From: Solobacterium sp.
GTDB lineage: Bacteria > Bacillota_I > Bacilli_A > Erysipelotrichales > Erysipelotrichaceae
DNA: 64,000 nt
Assembly (NCBI GenBank): GCA_017941735.1
Contig: JAGAVW010000057.1
Location: 1 to 64,000, forward strand
Direction: 5' to 3'
Part shown: positions 11,320-13,175 of the stretch, in pieces
How the letters are laid out: each line of letters starts with the position of its first letter
Numbering within the stretch: position 1 is the first letter of the stretch
Made by a program: the position numbers and the translations under genes
The notes under the pieces: model-generated
Told to the model about the DNA's origin: nothing
Database searches by the model: none
The model's input: the letters and a program-made list of their open reading frames with translations, nothing else

Positions 11320-11348
11320 TTGACTGGAATTCTATTGATTACTAAAAT
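11320..11348 (+). promoter_or_regulatory. Promoter of the mgtE transcript
   Basis: TTGACT (11320-11325) and TAAAAT (11343-11348) with a 17-base spacer, close to the sigma-A consensus. The predicted start near 11355 places the leader ORF at 11380 first on the message. Confidence 0.7.
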
Positions 11349-11379
11349 GAATGTACATAGTCTGTTAGGAGGTGGTCGT

Positions 11380-11472
11380 ATGGCGGAAGGAATACCGGAT
11401 AAAGAAAATCGATTTTTATTAATTACGACTAGAAGGAGAGCAGATTATGGACAACGAAAAAGAAATCAATGA
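11380..11472 (+). CDS. Candidate mgtE leader peptide (30 aa)
   Basis: Short ORF of 30 codons with a near-perfect ribosome-binding site AGGAGGTGG (11367-11375). The peptide starts MAEGIPDKENR, passes through LLITTRRRAD and ends in YGQRKRNQ. It runs in another frame through the mgtE Shine-Dalgarno (AAGGAGAG, 11432-11439) and stops at 11470-11472, 24 bases inside mgtE. Its position as first ORF after the promoter suggests translation affects mgtE expression. Early acidic residues near a proline recall peptides that destabilise ribosomes at low magnesium, such as enterobacterial MgtL, but there is no sequence homology. It could be fortuitous. Confidence 0.5.
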   Translation: MAEGIPDKENRFLLITTRRRADYGQRKRNQ

Positions 11473-12805
11473 AGTGGAAGTATTTCGTGAGCTTTTAAAG
11501 AATAAACAATATACAGCTTTACGTGAAAAAGCACTTGATATGAACGAAGTTGATTTAGCACAAATCCTTGACCAGATGGAAGATGAGGATATGTTAAAGA
11601 TGTTTCGTTTGTTGCCAAAAGATTCGGCAGCTGATGTCTTTGTGCAATTAGAACAAGAAAGCCAACAATATATCATTACACAATTATCTGAAAAAGAAGC
11701 AGGTAGTATTATTGATAACCTGTGGGCTGATGATGCGACTGACTTATTAGAAGAGATGCCTGCCAATGTCGTAAAGAAGATTCTTTCTAACGCAAAACCA
11801 GAAACGCGTGCAGATATTAATCACTTATTACAATATCCAGATGATTCCGCTGGTTCGATCATGACCACGGAATTCATGGATTTAAAACAGAATATGACGG
11901 TACGCCAGGCCCTTGATCGCATTCGTGAAAAGGGGATTGATTCTGAGACGGTTAACGTTTTATATGTGTTAGATCCTAAGCGTTTATTACTAGGTATCGT
12001 AAGTTTGCGTTCTTTGATTATGCATGATGAAAATGATGTGATTGAGACCTTTATGGAAGATGACATCATTTCTGTTAAAACAAATACCGACCAAGAAGAG
12101 GTTGCACAAATTTTCCAAAAGTATGACTTCATGGCGGTTCCTGTTGTGGATAAGGAAAACCGTATGGTTGGAATTATTACGGTTGACGACGTCATGGATA
12201 TCATGGAACAAGAAACAACCGAAGATATGGATAAGATGGCTGCCATCATTCCAAATGATAAACCATATCTTAAAACCTCTGTTTTTGAAACATGGAAAAA
12301 ACGTATTCCATGGCTTATGTTGATGATGATTTCCGCAACGTTTACTGGCAAAATCATTACCAGTTTTGAAGGTGCTTTAAGCCGTTTTATTATCTTAACT
12401 GCTTATATTCCAATGTTGATGGATACTGGTGGTAACTGTGGGAGCCAAGCTTCTACGGAAGTCGTGCGTTCTTTGTCGATTGGACAAGTGCACTTAAGCG
12501 ATTTCTTTAAAGTTGTATGGAAAGAGATGCGTGTTGGCTTACTATGTGGGGTGACACTTGCGGGTGTCAATTTCTTGAAGTGTATCTTTATTGATGGTGT
12601 CAGTGTGACCATTGCGGCCATCATTTGTATTACGATTGTTTGTTGCGTTTTCTTCGCAAAACTCATTGCGTCGATTCTAGTTATGTTTGTGACACGCTTG
12701 CATCTTGATGCGGCGGTGGTTGCTTCACCTATGTTAACAACCGTTATCGATGCCATTTCCTTAACCATTTATTTCTCAATTTCAATTCTACTATTAGGAC
12801 TTTAA
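11447..12805 (+). CDS. mgtE: Magnesium transporter MgtE
   Basis: Mg2+-gated magnesium channel of the plasma membrane (452 residues, usual length). An N-terminal superhelical domain (about residues 1-130, DAADVFVQLE-type repeats) is followed by the SAGSIMTTEF motif and two CBS domains (about 130-250). A plug helix and five C-terminal membrane helices come next. The pore signature appears as DTGGNCGSQASTEVVRSLSI. AAGGAGAG precedes ATG 11447. B. subtilis mgtE is governed by an M-box riboswitch; I see none here, only a short leader carrying an overlapping peptide ORF. The next gene starts 1 base after its stop. Confidence 0.96.
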   Translation: MDNEKEINEVEVFRELLKNKQYTALREKALDMNEVDLAQILDQMEDEDMLKMFRLLPKDSAADVFVQLEQESQQYIITQLSEKEAGSIIDNLWADDATDLLEEMPANVVKKILSNAKPETRADINHLLQYPDDSAGSIMTTEFMDLKQNMTVRQALDRIREKGIDSETVNVLYVLDPKRLLLGIVSLRSLIMHDENDVIETFMEDDIISVKTNTDQEEVAQIFQKYDFMAVPVVDKENRMVGIITVDDVMDIMEQETTEDMDKMAAIIPNDKPYLKTSVFETWKKRIPWLMLMMISATFTGKIITSFEGALSRFIILTAYIPMLMDTGGNCGSQASTEVVRSLSIGQVHLSDFFKVVWKEMRVGLLCGVTLAGVNFLKCIFIDGVSVTIAAIICITIVCCVFFAKLIASILVMFVTRLHLDAAVVASPMLTTVIDAISLTIYFSISILLLGL

Positions 12806-12806
12806 C

Positions 12807-13175
12807 ATGCTTAGAATATTTACGACCATTGGATGCACTAGTGCAAAACATCTAAAAGAACATTTAAAAACACATCAAATTGCTTATGAAGAAAACAATT
12901 TACATAAGTTATTACTCGATACAGAGAAACTAGAATCTTTTTTGTGCATGCATGAAGAAGAATGGTCATATTTATTTCCAACCTTAGAAAAAAGAAAAGT
13001 GGATGCTTCCTTTGTTGCTTGGCTTCAAAATCATCCAAGTTGTTTACAGCGTCCACTTATTTTTGATGATACAAAAGACGTTGACCTAGAAGGCTTACGC
13101 GCATATGCAAGACAATATTGCAATGCGAAATCAAGCAATTGGTTGTTGTGTGGAAAAAGTAGATTAAGCGATTAA
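12807..13175 (+). CDS. Spx/ArsC-family protein with a single active-site cysteine
   Basis: Thioredoxin-fold protein of the ArsC/Spx family (122 residues). The N-terminal segment FTTIGCTSAKHLKEHL aligns with the Spx/ArsC redox site, but the second cysteine of CxxC is absent (CTSAK). The LQRPLIFDD segment corresponds to the RRPIIID motif, including the Arg. Spx proteins bind the RNA polymerase alpha subunit and reprogram transcription under thiol stress; one-Cys members also occur. It follows mgtE by 1 base and is probably co-transcribed. Its last 12 bases overlap the 3' end of the convergent DeoR-type gene. Confidence 0.7.
   Translation: MLRIFTTIGCTSAKHLKEHLKTHQIAYEENNLHKLLLDTEKLESFLCMHEEEWSYLFPTLEKRKVDASFVAWLQNHPSCLQRPLIFDDTKDVDLEGLRAYARQYCNAKSSNWLLCGKSRLSD

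Follow-up and report, generated by a model that had tools for sequence, protein, structure and literature searches.

The window analysed here, a 64-kb stretch of DNA from Solobacterium sp. (Erysipelotrichaceae), carries a gene for the Mg2+ channel/transporter MgtE (452 aa, 11447–12805; PF01769, PF03448, and CBS domains), and a gene for a ComK-like protein (PF06338, 10855–11316) lies directly upstream of the mgtE leader. All the leader features described below, like mgtE itself, are on the plus strand. The leader is preceded by a promoter-like site, TTGACT-17-TAAAAT (11320–11348), which matches the −10/−35 pattern with a score of 10/12, the highest of the region, tied only by one site on the minus strand. 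A −10-like hexamer was present at −34 to −46 relative to the start of the upstream open reading frame (uORF) in most relatives, and the transcript start was inferred to be near 11355. The uORF has the Shine-Dalgarno (SD) sequence AGGAGGT (11367–11373), begins with the ATG at 11380, and comprises 30 codons (11380–11472; peptide MAEGIPDKENRFLLITTRRRADYGQRKRNQ) with a TGA stop codon ending at 11472. Its early acidic and proline codons, E3 to E9 (EGIPDKE, 11386–11406), are proposed to destabilise the ribosome, a function that is inferred. The SD sequence of mgtE is GAAGGAG (11432–11438), and the ribosome-binding site (RBS) of the uORF is better than that of mgtE. A consensus promoter followed by a 30-codon ORF overlapping mgtE had been proposed in a sequence-only reading of this DNA, and both were found. 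That reading was also right that the ORF passes through the mgtE RBS in another frame, but it placed the end of the ORF 24 bases inside mgtE, whereas the stop codon ends 26 nt inside. Downstream, a 122-aa ORF (12807–13175) starts two nucleotides after the mgtE stop codon; it had no Pfam match at 1e-3, and its N-terminus, TTIGCTSAKH, looks by eye like an Spx/ArsC-like start. A T-box leader (RF00230, 24774–24968, plus strand) lies elsewhere in the window.

The M-box (RF00380) is a riboswitch located before mgtE or mgtA genes. No Rfam family was found in the Solobacterium leader, and a scan at a permissive threshold returned only irrelevant chance matches. The absence of an M-box, as the sequence-only reading had it, held for the whole window and for the genome (G000, about 94% complete), in which CorA was not found and no MgtA-type ATPase scored above the curated cut-off. 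Because of the incompleteness of the genome, its lack of an M-box, CorA, and MgtA is not proof of absence. In the relatives G025, G032, G033, and G051, the position of the leader before mgtE is taken by an M-box, for which the Solobacterium leader of ~90 nt is too short. A strict rule of either M-box or uORF was considered and rejected, because an M-box and, behind it, a uORF stand in tandem before mgtE at L047 (Amphibacillus marinus), L129/G168, L175, and L181. The acidic uORF of these tandem leaders is exemplified by MANSSDPDSYCRKHF, and the arrangement may place two Mg2+ sensors in series. The riboswitch candidate SRC-65-1, an mgtE motif known only from Thioalkalivibrio (Narunsky et al. 2024, PMC11109978), is likewise a structured mgtE leader, but comes from a different phylum, has a multi-stem consensus of its own, and has no described uORF (PMC11109978).

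For comparison, mgtE loci were gathered by protein search from GTDB contigs and from genome sets of the genus, family, and phylum, and a uORF was counted in the upstream region if it had a strong RBS and started 55–135 nt upstream of mgtE. Such uORFs were present at 67 of 144 non-redundant mgtE loci, compared with 6 of 198 control genes from the same DNA, and five of these six sit within a longer ORF. The loci share descent, so that locus counts are not independent trials, and the peptide statistics were for this reason calculated on 47 clusters. The Solobacterium locus belongs to clade 1, a group of Erysipelotrichaceae of the same genus with some Lachnospiraceae/Clostridia, in which every uORF enters mgtE in a different frame and has its stop at +14 to +52. 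The alternative arrangement, a uORF terminating 12–65 nt upstream of mgtE, occurs in several further genera of Erysipelotrichaceae. The closest relative (L003/L057, 83% MgtE identity) has a uORF peptide beginning with MKECPRSSKYIF; SDQVPLC, SDNPRSRLC, and SDNPLPR occur in other clade-1 peptides, and MDERPRS, MDVPLC, EEPLPRG, DDPLPPRSRR, and SSDPDSYCR in mgtE leaders of other lineages. Within the genus, the uORF was missing at several mgtE genes (L009, L078, and a group of 51–54% identity), some of which had an M-box instead. Conservation in relatives, which the sequence-only reading had named as a check on its leader peptide, largely holds: a uORF with a strong RBS recurs at the same position and overlaps mgtE in another frame, but the exact peptide and the stop position vary. 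In some Lachnospiraceae (L030, L032, and L035), mgtE immediately follows a tRNA-like sequence, with no uORF found. A second DNA match within the Solobacterium genome (C42, L002) was discarded as an unrelated 24-base chance match near an ABC-transporter gene.

The leader peptides are diverse, and the trait that sequence comparison reveals as common to them is the early presence of acidic and proline residues. An acidic residue in codons 2–10 combined with a proline in codons 2–12 was found in 30 of the 47 clusters (64%), compared with 40 of 275 random RBS-bearing ORFs (14.5%; Fisher p = 8e-12) and 160 of 618 N-termini of real genes (Fisher p = 2e-7). Differences at the three codon positions numbered 19, 16, and 34, respectively, an excess at the third position (p = 0.004). 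In the PLC (VPLC) block, the uORF frame contained 204 synonymous and 332 other codon differences, whereas the corresponding numbers in the two other frames were only 27/444 and 16/443. Together, the third-position excess and the in-frame synonymous differences indicate that the uORF peptide is selected as a peptide. A genus-wide scan for the PLC pattern gave 18 matches, 11 of which were at mgtE, and the reversed pattern gave three. The PLC core, common in relatives, is absent from the Solobacterium peptide, which has E3, P6, D7, and E9 in agreement with the composition of the class; its acidic residues (E3, D7, and E9) are spaced apart, and it contains one proline and no cysteine.

Early acidic and proline codons, which the sequence-only reading had pointed out at this one locus, proved to be a common feature of the class and recur before corA and mgtA. 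In the family, acidic/proline uORFs were located upstream of 22 of 53 CorA genes and 4 of 26 MgtA genes, and upstream of none of nine Ca-type ATPase genes. The CorA leader peptides of Erysipelotrichaceae start with MSP[DE]P or MAPEP, and differ mostly at third codon positions; downstream of them lies an SD-like/anti-SD hairpin (0/5000 for TIR pairing). Scanning 266 genomes in an unbiased way for an RBS followed by M[SA]P[DE]P returned 20 matches, of which 19 were before corA (18 before an intact CorA gene and one before a CorA fragment) and one was elsewhere; the reversed pattern returned none in the same genomes. The uORFs follow Mg2+ transport across unrelated genes, which would not be expected if the peptide served another signal. 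The Solobacterium uORF is part of a widespread set of acidic/proline leaders before Mg2+ transporter genes of gut Firmicutes.

Some leaders of this set deserve separate description. Those of corA at L193, L197, L201, L209, L212, L246, L255, and others carry the MSP[DE]P or MAPEP peptide, then the SD mimic CAGGAGG, the anti-SD CCTCCTG, and finally the corA SD. These corA leaders constitute a compact translational attenuator, possibly the clearest member of the class. Upstream of mgtA (TIGR01524) at L219, L222, L225, and L231, there are uORFs such as MDEGPKPE, MEDSPHCK, MEDSPRRL, and MDTDGSRR, with an M-box also upstream of mgtA at L219 and L222.

The leader RNA (11355–11470) was predicted to fold with −27.1 kcal/mol (z = −4.5), and none of 200 shuffled sequences was as stable. 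Two helices make up this fold. P1 pairs the inferred 5′ end of the transcript (CATAGTCTGTT, 11356–11366) with a segment containing the mgtE start codon (AGCAGATTATG, 11439–11449). P2 pairs the spacer of the uORF RBS and the uORF start codon (TGGTCGTA, 11373–11380) with an anti-RBS immediately upstream of the mgtE SD (TACGACTA, 11424–11431). Because the arms contained too many gaps in a MAFFT alignment of 12 leaders to build a covariance model, covariation was assessed by comparing duplex energies of cognate arm pairs with those of non-cognate pairs taken from other loci, using 5000 permutations. For P2, each uORF RBS was paired with its own downstream region or with those of other loci, and the cognate pairs of the 26 clade-1 clusters gave −15.7 kcal/mol against −11.2 kcal/mol (0/5000), and pairing of the uORF RBS was similarly supported in 18 other clusters (−16.7 against −11.9, 0/5000). 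For P1, the values in clade 1 (n = 26) were −8.7 and −6.0 (0/5000). Pair types vary by position in both helices. Among the 26, the Solobacterium P2 is the weakest and its P1 the strongest. An initial assumption of an unpaired mgtE SD in clade 1 was rejected, as the start region pairs with the transcript 5′ end. Folding and covariation, although not evidence from cells, support the conclusion that P1 and P2 unite the RBS of the uORF with the mgtE start in a single hairpin.

Leaders of the lineages with an early-ending uORF are built differently: their mgtE start region pairs with the stretch between uORF and mgtE (1/5000, z = −3.9), forming an anti-SD attenuator. No such anti-SD pairing was detected between uORF and mgtE in clade 1 (z = +2.2), so that the alternative 2:3 and 3:4 stems of the MgtQ type, with an anti-RBS separating uORF and gene, are not seen there. 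At L121, L122, L123, and L127, also upstream of mgtE, the pairing partner of the uORF RBS lies inside a second hairpin, the 3′ arm of which also matches the mgtE SD (ATATACCTTC); the helices of these leaders exclude one another, giving a three-way switch.

When a ribosome initiating on the uORF was included in the calculation, the cost of opening the Solobacterium mgtE start region fell from 16.5 to 2.0 kcal/mol, and a drop of more than 2 kcal/mol was computed in 23 of 26 relatives. With a narrower ribosome footprint, the opening cost in Solobacterium was 8.6 kcal/mol instead, and a lone ribosome at codon 8 produced no general drop. The calculation combines the thermodynamics of free RNA with an assumed footprint and an assumed start site, and that a uORF ribosome opens the mgtE RBS is thus a computed result only. 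The proposal of the sequence-only reading that ribosomes on the uORF alter access to the mgtE start gains support from two covarying helices that had not been noticed in it, and its interpretation is supported overall, although how mgtE responds to Mg2+ and in which direction it is regulated remain inferred.

The most similar described systems come from enterobacteria, with a different gene, peptide length, RNA, and phylum. MgtQ is an 8-aa ORF in the mgtC-mgtB intergenic region of Salmonella, in which Asp2 and Glu5 were shown experimentally to be destabilising (PMC8092293). Like the Solobacterium leader, it has a strong AGGAGG-type RBS, early acidic codons, and a transporter RBS hidden in a hairpin for translational control, and abortion is proposed to favour the transporter, as in our model. 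Unlike the Solobacterium uORF, which precedes mgtE, is longer, and overlaps its start out of frame, MgtQ governs a P-type ATPase within an operon and ends well before its gene; it uses stems 1:2, 3:4, and 2:3, whereas the Solobacterium mgtE start pairs with the transcript 5′ end. The features of this type present at the Solobacterium locus are a short ORF with a strong SD directly upstream of an Mg2+ transporter gene, early acidic codons, and, judging from folding, covariation, and computed opening and not from cells, an mgtE start within an alterable RNA structure. MgtL, the mgtA leader peptide of E. coli and Salmonella, acts via Rho-dependent transcription termination (PMC11282234, PMC11552253), and its destabilising motif EPDP was determined experimentally (PMC11282234). 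It shares with the Solobacterium leader a uORF before an Mg2+ transporter gene and early acidic and proline residues, but the gene downstream encodes the P-type ATPase MgtA instead of MgtE, and the phylum and RNA are different. EPDP itself is absent from the Solobacterium peptide, which has EGIPDKE; SDNP, DDPLPP, and SDPD occur in other mgtE leaders, and the MSP[DE]P of the Erysipelotrichaceae CorA leaders is strikingly near to it. CorL, the leader ORF of corA in Salmonella and E. coli, is expressed inversely to the transporter, is described as poorer in proline and acidic residues, and acts with Rho (PMC11552253). It is likewise a leader ORF before an Mg2+ transporter gene, whereas the Firmicute CorA leaders have SPDP/SPEP and an anti-SD hairpin. 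Ribosomes of B. subtilis are known to struggle at Asp-Pro and acidic runs (PMC11381351). We found neither a Firmicute leader peptide of mgtE nor these CorA leaders described in the open-access literature, and the Firmicute set is apparently undescribed.

On balance, and with little more than even confidence, we favour a leader-peptide translation switch for mgtE resembling MgtQ, in which initiation on the uORF opens mgtE, abortion spares it, and completion blocks it. The mRNA from about 11355 would fold as one nested hairpin, with P1 hiding the mgtE start region against the transcript 5′ end and P2 pairing the uORF RBS and start with the site immediately upstream of the mgtE RBS. A ribosome initiating on the uORF would cover the 5′ arms of both helices and thereby free the mgtE RBS. 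At low Mg2+, the acidic and proline residues within the first ten codons would destabilise this ribosome, which would dissociate before it has covered the remaining ~30 nt to the mgtE RBS, leaving mgtE free for translation. When Mg2+ is sufficient, the ribosome would finish the uORF, passing over both the SD and the start codon of mgtE, and block initiation. Comparative sequence evidence bears out the conservation of the uORF, the codon-level selection, the acidic/proline enrichment, both helices, and the recurrence before three Mg2+ transporter families. Translation of the uORF, Mg2+-dependent abortion, blocking of mgtE by full translation, and the direction of control are inferred without expression, translation, or Mg2+ data. 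Other points that count against the model are the missing PLC core, the spaced acidic residues, and the weak P2 of Solobacterium, the mgtE genes of its genus that have no uORF, and the failure of a lone ribosome at codon 8 to open the mgtE RBS in the calculation. In the absence of data on the Mg2+ response, the leader set as a whole probably turns on Mg2+ transporter genes when magnesium is scarce.

The MgtQ-like mechanism fits somewhat better than one resembling MgtL, in which translation of the uORF would only repress by running over the mgtE start; at low Mg2+ ribosomes would drop off, P2 would shut the uORF RBS, and mgtE would be read with no need of the uORF for opening. All clade-1 uORFs do cross the mgtE start out of frame, P2 does sequester the uORF RBS, and translation of the enterobacterial mgtL and corL is inverse to the transporter (PMC11552253). 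However, in RNA free of ribosomes the mgtE start region is additionally hidden by P1, and closing the uORF alone would therefore leave mgtE unexposed. We regard pure repression as unlikely, though it cannot be put aside.

Two further explanations are improbable. Mg2+ stabilises RNA generally, and the strong covarying fold across the mgtE start could suggest that Mg2+ stabilises P1 and P2 themselves (or temperature melts them) and that they control mgtE directly, the uORF being a by-product. Codon-level selection on the peptide frame and the common acidic/proline content speak against such direct sensing, as do the absence from P1 and P2 of a conserved-sequence core as in aptamers and the lack of an Rfam match. 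Similarly doubtful is a coupling by termination and reinitiation, with the uORF merely delivering ribosomes to mgtE without acting as a sensor. The superior RBS of the uORF and its stop codon 26 nt within mgtE would suit this arrangement, but the stop position varies from +14 to +52, the uORFs of other lineages end before mgtE and are combined with an anti-SD instead, and the acidic/proline enrichment and the recurrence before CorA would be left unexplained.

There is very little room for amino-acid attenuation, in which the peptide would gauge charged tRNA for Pro, Cys, or Arg: a PLC or PR-S/C core is repeated in many mgtE uORFs and Salmonella mgtP responds to charged tRNA-Pro (PMC8092293), but the CorA and MgtA leaders share acidic residues and proline, not Cys and Leu, and the Solobacterium peptide offers a single proline and no cysteine. 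That the ORF arose by chance and is nonfunctional in this genome, while the version of its relatives works, is scarcely credible, since the departure of the peptide from the core motif and the weak P2 are outweighed by retention of the strong RBS, promoter, frame, overlap, acidic/proline residues, and the strongest P1.

A broader reading goes beyond the MgtQ-like switch at mgtE, and we consider the case for and against it evenly balanced: destabilising acidic/proline leaders would be a general Mg2+ sensor in Bacillota that arose before at least three unrelated families (MgtE, CorA, and MgtA), converging with the peptide chemistry of enterobacterial MgtL and MgtQ and driving several RNA designs. 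The designs under this reading would be the overlapping-uORF hairpin of Solobacterium, the anti-SD attenuator, and the tandem of M-box and uORF.

A few enterobacterial leaders are known to sense Mg2+ through ribosome stability during translation. Should the Firmicute class work alike, it would represent a widespread strategy in Firmicutes without an M-box at the transporter gene, and MgtE, CorA, and MgtA would each have come to it independently. Dozens of natural peptide variants would then be available for asking which nascent chains destabilise a ribosome at low Mg2+, and the opening and blocking of a downstream gene by the same ribosome would be a new RNA design.
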